64,000 nt of DNA from Methanohalophilus halophilus (GTDB taxonomy: Archaea > Halobacteriota > Methanosarcinia > Methanosarcinales > Methanosarcinaceae): positions 448,057 to 512,056 of the forward strand of contig NZ_CP017921.1 of the NCBI RefSeq assembly GCF_001889405.1. The letters are read 5' to 3'. A model generated the notes under the pieces. It was not told the DNA's origin. It was given only the letters and a program-made list of their open reading frames with translations, and did no database searches. The translations under genes and the position numbers were made by a program. Positions 4,500-45,783 of the stretch are shown here, in pieces. Position 1 is the first letter of the stretch. Each line of letters begins with the position of its first letter.

Positions 4500-5858
4500 T
4501 CAGGAAAACGATGCTCTCCTTTCCAGTAAACTGTATTCTTTCATGAACATATACACTGCAAGCAGAATTGCCAGAAGATCCGAAATCGGAAACGCTATCC
4601 ACACACCGGTAGTACCAAAAAACCAGGGCAAAACAAGTACTAAAGGAAGCAAAAAAACCTGCCTGGCTGTTGAAAGAATGAAAGAAGGCCGTGCCTTACC
4701 AAGTGCCTGATACATACCGCCACTCACAAACTGGATACCAAGCAGGGGAACCGCAAGGACCATTATCTTTGTAGCATCTGTTCCCTCCTTTATAAGAGTT
4801 GCATCTGTTGTAAAGATCGAAAAAAGATAAGATGAGAAAAAGAACAACATTAAAAAACCTGCTACTGCAATCACAGATGAGATTATCACGGAGATGCGCA
4901 ATGTATCTCTTACCCTCTCGAATTTATGTGCCCCATAATTAAATCCAATTATCGGTTGCATACCCTGTAAAAGCCCTATCATAGGCATAAAGGAAAACAT
5001 AAGCATGCGGTTAAAGATACCATAAATTGCAATCGAGACATCCCCCCCATACAATGCCAGGATATTATTCACAACAACCACTATAGCACTTGTGGAAGAA
5101 TTGCGTGCAAAAGGGGATGCGCCTATTGCGACCATTTCTCTTATTATGCCCCTATCCGGTCTCATAAAGCCCGCATGGAATTGCAGGCTACTTTTACCCG
5201 ACAGGAAATAATGTATCAGAAATATTGTTGTGGCAAACTGGGAGATTACCGTTGCAGCCGCAGCCCCCCTTATACCCATGTCAAGACCAAATATCAGGAT
5301 GGGATCAAGTAATATGTTAAGGCCGGCACCTATAAGCATTGTATACATGGCGACTTTAGCATTGCCTTCAGACCTCACCACATTATTGATAGCCTGGGCA
5401 AACGTGATTAAAGGAATTCCATAAAGTATAATTTGTAAATAGTCCCTGGCAAAAGGCAATATCGTCGGTGTTGCTCCAAAGGCTTTGAGAATGGGCACAA
5501 TAAAAATTGAGCCGAAGATAAAGACCAAGAATCCCAGAGAAAGAGACAGACCAACCATATTACCAAAGGTGCGTTCCGCACCTTCCAGATCATCGCCACC
5601 CAGCCGGCGGGAAATTATGGAAGAGCCACCCAAACCGATTGCCAGGGAAACAGCCATCGCTATCATTATTACAGGGAAACTGACAGCAATACCACCAATA
5701 CCCTGGACACTTTCCCCTCCAAGGGCACGACCGACAAAAATCGTATCAACGATATTGTATAGACCCATTACCACCATACCAACTGTGGCCGGTGCCGAAA
5801 GCCTGAAAAGGAGCCTGCCGACACTTTCCGCCCCGAGGGCACGGCTCTGCTCCTTCAC
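4500..5858 (-). CDS. MATE family multidrug/sodium antiporter
   Basis: A 452-residue integral membrane protein with about 12 hydrophobic segments in two homologous halves, opening with MSAPA-like LSAPATVGMVVMGLYNIVDT, typical of the MATE superfamily (NorM/DinF/MepA branch). It would export cationic drugs or metabolites using a sodium or proton gradient. The start is GTG at 5858. It directly follows the MarR-type gene on the same strand; the two are 20 bases apart, which suggests the regulator controls the pump. Confidence 0.9.
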   Translation of the reverse strand: MKEQSRALGAESVGRLLFRLSAPATVGMVVMGLYNIVDTIFVGRALGGESVQGIGGIAVSFPVIMIAMAVSLAIGLGGSSIISRRLGGDDLEGAERTFGNMVGLSLSLGFLVFIFGSIFIVPILKAFGATPTILPFARDYLQIILYGIPLITFAQAINNVVRSEGNAKVAMYTMLIGAGLNILLDPILIFGLDMGIRGAAAATVISQFATTIFLIHYFLSGKSSLQFHAGFMRPDRGIIREMVAIGASPFARNSSTSAIVVVVNNILALYGGDVSIAIYGIFNRMLMFSFMPMIGLLQGMQPIIGFNYGAHKFERVRDTLRISVIISSVIAVAGFLMLFFFSSYLFSIFTTDATLIKEGTDATKIMVLAVPLLGIQFVSGGMYQALGKARPSFILSTARQVFLLPLVLVLPWFFGTTGVWIAFPISDLLAILLAVYMFMKEYSLLERRASFS

Positions 5859-5878
5859 CTACACGCCCTCACGCAATT

Positions 5879-6295
5879 CTAAATGGCTTTTTCCAGCAAA
5901 TTTCTGAATAGGGTTTTTTCCTCTTCTGAAAAACCAGCAAGCATACTTTCACTTCGTTTTTGCGAAAGCTGGCGGATAAAACGATGCATACGATGACCTT
6001 CCTCTGTAAGGTTTACCACCAATGCGCGCCGGTCTTCTGGATCCGGCGTCCGCTGCACATAACCCGCATCCTCAAGTCTTTTCAATGCCCTTGTGACCGT
6101 GGCCCGGTTGACCATCAGCATGCGGGATAATTCCTCAGGACGAATCCCGTCAACATGGTACAGAGCAAGCAAAAACCTGAATTGACCGCCTCCTATCCCA
6201 TATATTTCCAGTTCCTGCGAAAGGTAACGCAGATTATGTCGGTGAAGGCAGGCAATCATTGCTCCCAAACTGTGCACATGTTCATCCTGAATCAT
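5879..6295 (-). CDS. MarR family transcriptional regulator
   Basis: A 138-residue winged-helix protein with the MarR core: DGIRPEELSRMLMVNRATVTRALKRLEDAGYVQRTP (positions about 50-85) followed by the wing motif DPEDRRALVVNLTEEG. It likely represses the adjacent MATE pump and itself. A palindrome TTGCGTATGCAA just upstream fits a MarR operator, and a TATA box (TTATATAAC, 6317-6325) about 25 bases before the ATG implies a nearly leaderless transcript. Odd feature: the stop codon is TAG, the only one I found among the window's genes. Readthrough would add seven more sense codons and end at a TGA that overlaps the GTG start of the MATE gene. Confidence 0.92.
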   Translation of the reverse strand: MIQDEHVHSLGAMIACLHRHNLRYLSQELEIYGIGGGQFRFLLALYHVDGIRPEELSRMLMVNRATVTRALKRLEDAGYVQRTPDPEDRRALVVNLTEEGHRMHRFIRQLSQKRSESMLAGFSEEEKTLFRNLLEKAI

Positions 6296-41834: not shown

Positions 41835-43766
41835 TCAGGCCTCTTCATCTATCAGGCGGGTACCAACTCCCATAATCCTGATTTTGGTTTCCATTGGGAA
41901 ATCCCAACCTTCCGGCACAATCTCATCCTTCTTGACGTCAATTTCCACATGATCCGGGTCCAAACCGGCGTCTTCCATGTATTGCATGACCATGGATTGT
42001 CCTGTTTCCCTGGCGTATTTTATAGCATCTTTATATTCATAGAAACTCTGTCGCCCTTTTTCGGAAAATACATAGTATTCCCAATCAGGGGCTGCCATAG
42101 AAGCAGGCCTTATAAGGAAATCAACCCTCCTTACACCTTTGGCTGCAAGGGCACCTGTGGCATTCCCGACATCGGAATATTTTGGTACAATAATCTCGGC
42201 ATCAATAATATTTCCAAGTATGTCCTTATAAGCAACCACGGGGCCACCGATAAGAACAACCGGGATATCAACCTTAAACTTTGTAGGACAATCTATATCG
42301 AATATTTTACGAATCTCTTCCCTTGGAATACCTTCCAGGAAAAAGGAAATCAGGTCTGAGGCCATATTCTTGGCAAAGGTTTCCTTGACATACCTGGCAA
42401 ATTCCTCGCCGGTTCTCTTACACAGGGAGCCCAGGTATTCAGCACCTACCTCCGCTGCCTCCACATTGCGGGCGGTGTAATCCCCCAGTACATGCAGAGC
42501 GTCCGTGGGTGTAAAACCAATACACTGCACAAGCCTTTTCTGAATAAGGCTGTCCAGAATCCTGGTTGAGGGATACCTGCCCATGCGGCTGCGTAATTCC
42601 CTCAGCGAAGTGGGACTACTAGAGATGGAATCAAGCAATTCCTGCTCCAGATCATTAAGACCCATGGCTTCATATTCAGTACGTGTAAAGAAGGTCGTGG
42701 GCTGGAAATTCATGCCGATCAAAGTTTTGGTGGGCATGGGATTGATCTTGAGAAGTTCCAGAAAATCGGGATAGAGATCCGCTGCTCTGCAAAGGGGAAT
42801 TACACGTCGCGGCCCAACATTCAATTTGCCGTCCTTTACCCATATGTGACTGTCACCACCCATTGCAGATGTTTCCATCTTTATGGCCTTGACACGAGTT
42901 TTCCAGCCACCGACAACCGCCCCCATCTCACTCATTTCAGGAACGCCGTCTTTTATAACGGAAATATCGGTACTTGTACCGCCCACATCAATAACTGCGC
43001 ATGAATCATTTCCTGTCAAAAAGGAAGCTCCTACAAGGCTTCCCGCAGGGCCAGAAAAAATAGATTCAATGGGCTTTTCCAGTGCACTTTTGATACCGAT
43101 AACAGAGCCATCGCATTTGAGCATGAATATCTTCGGACTGATTCCCCTGGAAGTTACATCCTTTTCCACAGTGGACATGAACCTTTCTGTAATGGGCAAC
43201 AGCTGAGCATTGAAAAAGGCAGTCGTTGCTCTTTCAAAGGCACCAAGGTCCTGAGAGAGCTCGTGTGCACATACCACAGGAAGACCTGTAGCCTCGCGGA
43301 TTATCTGCTTGGCCCGGATTTCATGGTCCGGGTTACGAATACTGAAAAAGGAAGAGATTGCAAAAGCTGCAACCTTGTCCTTTATTTTCACCGCAAAATC
43401 CCTGACTGCTTCCTCATCCAGGGGTTCTTTCTCCCCACCATTATATGTATGACCACCGGCAACTTTTACGTAATGGGGAGTCGGAAGTTTTTCCTTGAGA
43501 TCATAATTTCCGATCAAAAACAAGCCAACGGGGAAACCCGTACCTTCAAGAATCGTGTTTGTCGAAAGGGTTGTTGATACGGAAACAATCTTTACTTTCT
43601 TGAGTTTTTCCTGGTCGAGACCATCAATTGAGTTTTTTATCCCATTCAGTGGATCGGGATATGTTGTAAGTGCTTTATTTGAATCAAGAATACTATCAGT
43701 GTCATCATCCAGAAGAACAGAATCAGTATAAGTTCCTCCAGCATCAATTCCCAAACTGTATACCAT
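41835..43766 (-). CDS. Hydantoinase/oxoprolinase family protein
   Basis: A 643-residue protein of the HyuA/5-oxoprolinase A superfamily, an ASKHA-fold ATPase. The phosphate 1 motif SLGIDAGGTYTDSVLLDDD is at about 4-22, and VIDVGGTSTDISVI is near 260-273 (phosphate 2). A further C-terminal region (about 560-643) is linked by a beta-rich segment. Substrates in the family include hydantoins, 5-oxoproline and acetone-type compounds, and methanogen members are uncharacterised. The ATG at 43766 has GGAGGTG 7 bases upstream. No HyuB partner is adjacent. Confidence 0.85.
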   Translation of the reverse strand: MVYSLGIDAGGTYTDSVLLDDDTDSILDSNKALTTYPDPLNGIKNSIDGLDQEKLKKVKIVSVSTTLSTNTILEGTGFPVGLFLIGNYDLKEKLPTPHYVKVAGGHTYNGGEKEPLDEEAVRDFAVKIKDKVAAFAISSFFSIRNPDHEIRAKQIIREATGLPVVCAHELSQDLGAFERATTAFFNAQLLPITERFMSTVEKDVTSRGISPKIFMLKCDGSVIGIKSALEKPIESIFSGPAGSLVGASFLTGNDSCAVIDVGGTSTDISVIKDGVPEMSEMGAVVGGWKTRVKAIKMETSAMGGDSHIWVKDGKLNVGPRRVIPLCRAADLYPDFLELLKINPMPTKTLIGMNFQPTTFFTRTEYEAMGLNDLEQELLDSISSSPTSLRELRSRMGRYPSTRILDSLIQKRLVQCIGFTPTDALHVLGDYTARNVEAAEVGAEYLGSLCKRTGEEFARYVKETFAKNMASDLISFFLEGIPREEIRKIFDIDCPTKFKVDIPVVLIGGPVVAYKDILGNIIDAEIIVPKYSDVGNATGALAAKGVRRVDFLIRPASMAAPDWEYYVFSEKGRQSFYEYKDAIKYARETGQSMVMQYMEDAGLDPDHVEIDVKKDEIVPEGWDFPMETKIRIMGVGTRLIDEEA

Positions 43767-44038
43767 GCCGGAACACCTCCAATATATTAGCAATTTATAT
43801 GTACAAATAGGCTAAATTGAGTTATAAAAGGTTCCATAAATTCACGGCTACATAAAGATACCGCATTATCCTATCAGCGTGAACATTCTAAAAAGAGGCG
43901 CATGGTATCTAAAATCAAAGCGAGAGGCACAGATAAGGAGCCAAATATCTAAAACAAGAAATAACCTGCCAAAATGTATAAATCTTTGTCTATATATAGA
44001 TAAAACTGCAAACCATTTAACAAAGTGAGGGACGGGGC
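43767..44038. other. Intergenic region between the hydantoinase gene and the amber-containing gene
   Basis: It holds the minus-strand promoter of the hydantoinase gene (ACATATAAATTG near 43793-43804) and the plus-strand TATA (CTATATATAGATAA, 43990-44003) of the next small gene. A 49-codon GTG frame (43879-44028) lies between but lacks an RBS and is not called. Confidence 0.45.
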
Positions 44039-44233
44039 ATGAATAAAAAAGAGGATTTTTAGTGGGAAAAATCACCTGTTTCCGAAAGGGAAAAGGAAAA
44101 AATCATACCGATCCCACTTAAATCCAATCACTGGACAGAAGAGAAACCAAATATGGATGATGCAGATATTGTTGTAGATGAATTTAAGGAAAGAATTGCC
44201 CGCATTATATCTGATAAGAGGGCAAAAGAGTGA
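44039..44233 (+). CDS. Small protein with an in-frame TAG (candidate pyrrolysine protein)
   Basis: From ATG 44039, with GTGAGG 8-13 bases upstream and a TATA box about 40-50 bases upstream, the frame reads MNKKEDF, an amber TAG at 44060-44062, then WEKSPVSEREKEK, IIPIPLKSNHWTEEKPN and MDDADIVVDEFKERIARIIS before TGA at 44231-44233. If TAG is read as pyrrolysine the product has 64 residues. The part after TAG is 56 stop-free codons of typical composition (charged, helical C-terminus). No start codon follows TAG until ATG 44153. The 3' end overlaps the convergent ecfT gene by 29 bases. Confidence 0.55.
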
Positions 44234-45002
44234 TACTCAAATTCCAGAAGGCAAGCAACAATATAAAAACCAACATAAGGACTACCCAATCATATTTTTC
44301 CATTTTTAATTCAAAAAGGGATGTCCTGTAGTTACCCTGATAACACCTGCTCTCCATTCCCAGGGATATATCGTCCATCATCCTGAAGGCTCCTCTGAGC
44401 AAGGGTACTGCCAGTGAAACCAATCCTGAAATCCTTTTTTGTCTTCCCAGACCCCTGCACAGCTGTGCCTGATACACTTCTTTCAGGAACCTGTTCAAGA
44501 CAGGAACCAGATGGATGGAGAGGGACATCATGGTGGCAATTTCAAAAGAACTCACTCCTAAGATCTTGCCTGGCAGGGGACGAAGTAGCCTTTCAACTCC
44601 CGCCGTCATGTGAGCAGGAGAAGTCGTAGCCGCCAACAGGGAGGCAAATTGTATCAAAAGAATAAAACGCCCTACAATCCTCAGGCCCTCATAAAAGCCT
44701 TCTGAGGTGGCAGAAAATCCATACAAATCCATAAAACTATTCCCCGGTATCAGGAATAGCTGGAATATAAAAATTAAGATTAAGAAGGGGGCAATTGGAC
44801 GAAGGTTTCGTAGCATCGCAATACGCACAGAAGAAAGATAGTATAAAACTATGAATAATGCAAATATCAGGACCAAACCTGTAACATGCAACCTGAAGAT
44901 CAAAATGCTGATCAGCATCGTAGCTATTAGTTTTGTGCGGGGATCAAGCTTGTGCAAGAAGGAATCTCCAGGGACAAAACCCAAAAAATAATCAGGCATC
45001 AT
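44205..45002 (-). CDS. ecfT: ECF transporter transmembrane subunit EcfT
   Basis: A 265-residue EcfT/CbiQ membrane subunit with about five helices. The family coupling motifs that contact the two ATPases appear as EVYQAQLCRGLGR (A-R-G-like, near 189) and DISLGMESRCYQGNYRTSLF (near 219-238). FVPGDSFLHKLDPRTKL near 10-26 is the usual N-terminal signature. The start at 45002 is chosen because GGAG lies 6 bases before it; ATGs at 45008 and 44999 are alternatives. It completes the bioY-ecfA-ecfA'-ecfT operon. Confidence 0.92.
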   Translation of the reverse strand: MMPDYFLGFVPGDSFLHKLDPRTKLIATMLISILIFRLHVTGLVLIFALFIVLYYLSSVRIAMLRNLRPIAPFLILIFIFQLFLIPGNSFMDLYGFSATSEGFYEGLRIVGRFILLIQFASLLAATTSPAHMTAGVERLLRPLPGKILGVSSFEIATMMSLSIHLVPVLNRFLKEVYQAQLCRGLGRQKRISGLVSLAVPLLRGAFRMMDDISLGMESRCYQGNYRTSLFELKMEKYDWVVLMLVFILLLAFWNLSITLLPSYQI

Positions 45003-45783
45003 CCACATCTCCGATTTCTAATTTTTCCAATTGCCTGATTGCACTTTCCACTGTAAACGTATCCGGGTTCACTGGTAAACCCCTTGAATGCAGCCTCTTC
45101 ATCAAAGCGGTTACAGGCGGCAGAGGGAGACTATCATCCAAAATGTAATGTTGCCTTTGACCATCAAAACAAATTATTCCATCCCGCAGGTAGATAATTC
45201 GCGGAGCTACTTCAAGCAGTTTATCTAGGTGATGGGAAATTACGATAACCCCTACTCCCATATTCTGCAAGGTCTGTATAATATGAGGGAGGTGCGTTTT
45301 TCCTTTTGTATCAAGCCCTGCAAAAGGTTCATCGAGCACCATATATCTGGGAGACTGGGCAATTATTCCTGCCAAAGACACCAATTTCTGTTCCCCTCCA
45401 CTGATCCCGAAGGGAGATACTTCAAGGAGGGATTTATCCAGACCCACTATATCTACTGCCTTGTTGACCTGCCTTTCAATATCCCTTCTATCAAAACCAA
45501 AATTAGAAGGACCAAAGGCAATGTCATCATAAACCGTTTTTTCAAAGAGTTGTCTGGAAGAATGCTGAAATAGGACACCTATCATTTCCCTGACTTTTTT
45601 AGCATGGTATGGATAACCATCAATTTGCACAATGCCGTTGTCTGGTTCGAGCAGACCAACAAGAAGACGCAACAAGGTTGATTTGCCCGCGCCTACAGGC
45701 CCCGTCAAGCCCACAATCTCACCGGGCTTTATGTACATGGATACATTTTGCAAAACTAAATTTTGCCCGTATGAAAATTTCAA
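44992..45783 (-). CDS. ECF transporter ATPase EcfA'
   Basis: A 263-residue ABC ATPase. Walker A is GPVGAGKST (near 29-37), Q-loop LFQHSSRQLF (near 72-81), signature GISGGEQKL (near 125-133) and Walker B VLDEPFAGLD (near 149-158), followed by the switch His in VISHHLDK. The C-terminal 40 residues are the ECF-specific extension. With its partner it powers biotin uptake. The TTG start overlaps the preceding stop by 4 bases, so the pair is translationally coupled; the N-terminus is slightly short. Confidence 0.92.
   Translation of the reverse strand: MKFSYGQNLVLQNVSMYIKPGEIVGLTGPVGAGKSTLLRLLVGLLEPDNGIVQIDGYPYHAKKVREMIGVLFQHSSRQLFEKTVYDDIAFGPSNFGFDRRDIERQVNKAVDIVGLDKSLLEVSPFGISGGEQKLVSLAGIIAQSPRYMVLDEPFAGLDTKGKTHLPHIIQTLQNMGVGVIVISHHLDKLLEVAPRIIYLRDGIICFDGQRQHYILDDSLPLPPVTALMKRLHSRGLPVNPDTFTVESAIRQLEKLEIGDVDDA

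Follow-up and report, generated by a model that had tools for sequence, protein, structure and literature searches.

The short open reading frame at 44039-44233 of the window (the whole 64,000-nucleotide stretch analysed, part of a 2,022,959-base genome of the genus Methanohalophilus) is a genuine gene of a small protein family. The explanation that we strongly favor is that a Ser codon of this family has become TAG here and is decoded as pyrrolysine (Pyl), giving a 64-residue protein, and we therefore regard the gene as a new candidate for a Pyl protein, with good support. The original prediction, made from the letters of the window, described an ATG, seven codons (MNKKEDF), an in-frame TAG, 56 sense codons and a TGA, which matches the sequence exactly (Table 1). 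The proposed ribosome-binding site GTGAGG is present as well, and the TATA box placed at about 43990-44003 corresponds to the AT-rich element of the candidate promoter region, with a further TATAAAT upstream of it. No in-frame ATG, GTG or TTG was found between the TAG and ATG 44153, in agreement with the prediction. A TAG this early, at the eighth of 64 codons, leaves an ordinary gene caller with nothing to report, which explains how the gene escaped annotation.

Table 1. Features of the small gene, its neighbors and the TPR gene (positions in the window unless a locus is named).
Feature	Position	Strand	Basis
Candidate promoter region	43977-44004	+	TATAAAT at 43977-43983 plus conserved AT-rich element TATATATAGATAAA at 43991-44004; putative promoter role
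GTGAGG, candidate ribosome-binding site	44025-44030	+	sequence; kept in four genomes
First seven codons, MNKKEDF	44039-44059	+	homologous to the family N-terminus (M..K.DF)
In-frame TAG, codon 8	44060-44062	+	kept in four genomes; putatively read as pyrrolysine
Codons 9-64, protein body with IIPIP motif	44063-44230	+	family homology, low divergence, structure model
TGA stop codon	44231-44233	+	sequence; identical in four genomes
Weak predicted hairpin from the TAG, AGUGGGA with UCCCACU	44061-44119	+	z -1.56
Hydantoinase/oxoprolinase-like protein, divergent neighbor	41835-43766	-	NCBIfam caprolactamase/acetophenone carboxylase subunits, below cut-off; synteny in G002 and genus g7
CbiQ-like ECF transporter T component, convergent neighbor	44205-45008	-	TIGR02454, E 2.6e-15, below cut-off
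TPR protein, 208 codons	L050 18701-19327 (G000:C1:1368701-1369327)	+	in-frame TAGs at codons 91 and 94

The shape of the reading frame alone is within chance. The window holds fourteen open reading frames in which an ATG and a single TAG are followed by more than 50 codons, and in many real genes a false start lies upstream with a TAG behind it. Since a shape with an in-frame TAG is not rare, the case rests on the comparison between genomes, and the significance of the frame comes from its conservation.

A search of the order at E 0.01 found homologs in 43 of 186 genomes, every one in the same taxonomic family. The window copy is a full-length homolog of this small DFSW..IP..DEFK family of Methanosarcinaceae, which appears to be unnamed; three members tested against Pfam and NCBIfam gave no match up to E 1. 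In a single-sequence search, residues 1-60 of the window copy matched a homolog that has a sense codon (E 1.3e-7), and the profile search gave E 3e-23 for the window copy, which is itself part of the profile. The family alignment spans the TAG and contains the D-F-S-W motif, the IP motif and the C-terminal D-FK region. Codon 8 of the 39 distinct family sequences that have the motif encodes Ser 31 times, Thr twice and Met twice and is TAG in the other four, so the homologs without TAG read straight through this position with a sense codon. They share the same start, and none begins downstream of the TAG. Orthologs in genus g7 adjoin the same hydantoinase gene and carry Ser at codon 8. A structure model built from three sequences (mean pLDDT 70.7, pTM 0.31) predicted a C-terminal helix at residues 39-63, with pLDDT 82-91 across residues 41-60, and this helix is the only feature that the model shows.

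Within the genus, the TAG at codon 8, the intact frame and the TGA are common to the window genome, M. portucalensis FDF-1, M. profundi SLHTYRO and strain RSK, and a profile search found no second copy in these four genomes. In G002, which belongs to the same genus, the ortholog is likewise flanked by cbiQ and the hydantoinase gene, and its frame is open, with TCT (Ser) at codon 8. The copy in M. mahii lacks its 5' end, codon 8 with it, and what remains is broken by a TGA; judged by this sequence, the gene is dead there. The frame after the TAG, which the original prediction expected to be preserved in close relatives, is thus intact in all four TAG carriers and wrecked in M. mahii. The locus holds unrelated sequence in G001, and no copy of the gene was found in G007. 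Given M. mahii, G001 and G007, the gene is dispensable in places.

Variation was counted among the four TAG genomes for 44039-44204, the part of the small gene outside the cbiQ overlap. Nine of 166 sites vary in this part vs 32 of 115 in the upstream spacer (Fisher p 2.3e-7). The small gene also varies less than cbiQ (107 of 775 sites, p 0.0017), and its variation does not differ from that of the hydantoinase gene (110 of 1158 sites, p 0.11). None of the 21 sites of the MNKKEDF codons varies, and neither do the 29 bases that overlap cbiQ. The stretch from the TAG to ATG 44153, taken alone, is constrained compared with the spacer (p 7e-4). The dN/dS among the four copies is 0.27, a value that rests on few changes. 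The small gene is under purifying constraint. Its dS of 0.06, over about 34 synonymous sites, is below the 0.20 of both neighbors in the same genomes, which may reflect chance, RNA-level constraint or recombination.

These data bear directly on the possibility that the gene is an early pseudogene, in which the TAG was a true nonsense mutation in a Methanohalophilus ancestor and the remainder has been decaying ever since. The broken copy in M. mahii and the absence in two further genomes are consistent with such a history, for which the decaying citrate synthase described below is a precedent in the genus. However, the frame is unbroken in four genomes, its divergence is well under that of the spacer and of cbiQ, and the promoter region shows hardly any change across these genomes, which makes the pseudogene improbable.

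The original prediction also offered a regulated leader, in which MNKKEDF followed by termination would be the usual product and Pyl supply would decide read-through, so that the TAG would act as a switch for methylamine or Pyl status. The TAG is indeed very early, termination there would abolish the protein, and the weak predicted hairpin begins at the TAG. However, there is no co-directional gene downstream to control: the next gene is the convergent cbiQ, the 3' end of which runs 29 bases into the small gene. Beyond the TAG lies the body of the protein family, relatives encode the same protein without a TAG, and the hairpin pairs are not conserved, with pairing bases altered in M. profundi and RSK. 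A leader function is therefore very unlikely. The hairpin had a z of -1.56 for 106 nt, and 14 of 200 shuffles were equally good; with this z and the unconserved pairs, a PYLIS-like element after the TAG was rejected. Least likely of all is a restart at the in-frame ATG 44153 to yield a 26-residue peptide, since, although the stretch after this ATG varies least (1 of 52 sites), every homolog begins at the family N-terminus and the constrained stretch between the TAG and ATG 44153 contains the family IP motif.

The hydantoinase/oxoprolinase-like gene marks the conserved locus of the small gene. A hydantoinase/oxoprolinase paralogue in genome G007 (G007:C9:212114-214039) carries one in-frame TAG. 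In genera g7 and g10 the family gene faces an SO_0444 Cu/Zn efflux transporter in convergent orientation. A function suggested by this transporter was considered and set aside; because cbiQ takes its place at the locus in the window genome, we claim no function from the neighbors.

Decoding of UAG as Pyl depends on the pyl genes, whose presence in the genome was one of the checks attached to the original prediction. A tRNA-Pyl(CTA) was found at 5819-5890 in locus L042, followed by reading frames for PylS, PylB, PylC and PylD in this order, and this complete pylT-S-B-C-D set stands about 25 kb before the window. PylC was identified by TIGR03909 above its cut-off, and PylS, PylB and PylD by gene order and recognizable sequence; a search of the genome with PF21360 did not find PylC. 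The rarity of TAG as a stop, also part of the original prediction, was borne out. A simple gene caller gave no TAG-ended gene of at least 60 aa in the window, and in a sample of 321 kb, about 16% of the genome, the stops of 234 called genes were TGA in 125, TAA in 103 and TAG in 6. Three of these six genes have long, well-scoring extensions and look like read-through genes of the methylamine-methyltransferase type. The remaining three are pylB, a TPR gene with two TAGs, and one gene with a second stop two codons on. The pylB gene (L042 7201-8262) ends in TAG with 39 more codons before the next stop, and pylB is also known to stop at TAG in M. mazei, M. acetivorans and M. burtonii (PMC2933860). 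Mass spectrometry found Pyl in MttB of M. portucalensis (PMC4928046), and in an M. acetivorans reporter the decoding of UAG was partial, at 20-30% (PMC2933860).

The TPR gene is a stronger Pyl-protein candidate than the 64-codon gene. Its two TAGs are kept in six Methanohalophilus genomes; G007 has two TAGs and G002 has one, placed elsewhere in the gene. Outside the genus, the homologs found are free of in-frame TAGs, with a single exception in genus g7 (L134, G029:C72:19823-20422), which has one. Past the TAGs, the dN/dS was 0.20 at a dS of 0.22, indicating purifying selection. Therefore, the sequence beyond UAG is translated, and read-through of UAG in this genus is not limited to the methyltransferases.

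Citrate synthase was compared at loci L119, L120 and L121-L124. The gene has one in-frame TAG in M. mahii (L120, G003:C1:499583-500647) and is intact in M. portucalensis and G002, the M. portucalensis copy being without TAG. In the window genome, M. profundi, RSK and G001, only C-terminal fragments were matched. Citrate synthase shows a TAG arising in a gene that decays in several species.

Taken with the sense codons of the relatives, the presence of Ser in G002 suggests how the TAG of the small gene may have arisen. The Ser codon at position 8, most simply TCG, would have mutated to TAG once G002 had split off, in the ancestor shared by several Methanohalophilus species. The tRNA-Pyl charged by PylRS would then decode codon 8, yielding a protein of 64 residues whose eighth, pyrrolysine, lies in a DF-O-W motif. 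The homologs that extend through codon 8, the intact frames and pylTSBCD all support the 64-residue Pyl-containing protein that was originally proposed, and from them we infer Pyl as the inserted residue. The change from Ser to TAG was presumably neutral. Relatives tolerate Ser, Thr or Met at this position, so Pyl there is probably tolerated and not recruited for catalysis. With a relative of the same genus that retains the ancestral Ser at the same locus, the origin of a Pyl site can be given its place in the tree and put to the test.

The small gene and the TPR gene together provide concrete cases on which to ask whether Methanohalophilus treats UAG as a plain sense codon. We lean slightly toward the view that UAG is one essentially genome-wide, that TAGs drift in ordinary genes, and that these two genes are the visible traces of this drift.

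To our knowledge, few native Pyl proteins exist beyond the methylamine methyltransferases. In those enzymes (MtmB, MtbB and MttB), Pyl is catalytic and conserved across the family. Like the small gene, they carry an in-frame TAG alongside the same pylTSBCD system in the genome; in contrast, the TAG of the small gene replaces Ser, Thr or Met in one subclade. Kivenson and colleagues (Science, 2025) reportedly describe an archaeal 'Pyl code' that reads every TAG as sense, and the scarce use of TAG as a stop and the ordinary genes carrying TAG seen here are similar to such a code. No earlier description of the small gene was found in the literature covered, to which this 2025 report did not belong. 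An earlier screen took M. mahii as its Methanohalophilus genome (PMC3639795) and could not detect the small gene, because M. mahii has lost codon 8. The citrate synthase of M. mahii, for whose amber codon the authors suggest Pyl (PMC3017947), is likewise a non-methyltransferase gene of the same genus; it differs in being intact without TAG in M. portucalensis and matched in several other genomes by fragments only.

The nearest likeness is to Thg1 (tRNA-His guanylyltransferase), an ordinary protein and not a methyltransferase, in which we take the TAG to be confined to one lineage, with a sense codon in the homologs, as at codon 8 here. The two proteins are unrelated, and the TAG of the small gene sits at codon 8 and is common to at least four species. 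In the accounts of Heinemann et al. 2009 given by later papers (PMC8211752, PMC2933860), Pyl in Thg1 of Methanosarcina is described as neutral evolution. By analogy, the small gene resembles a neutral acquisition of Pyl of the Thg1 type.
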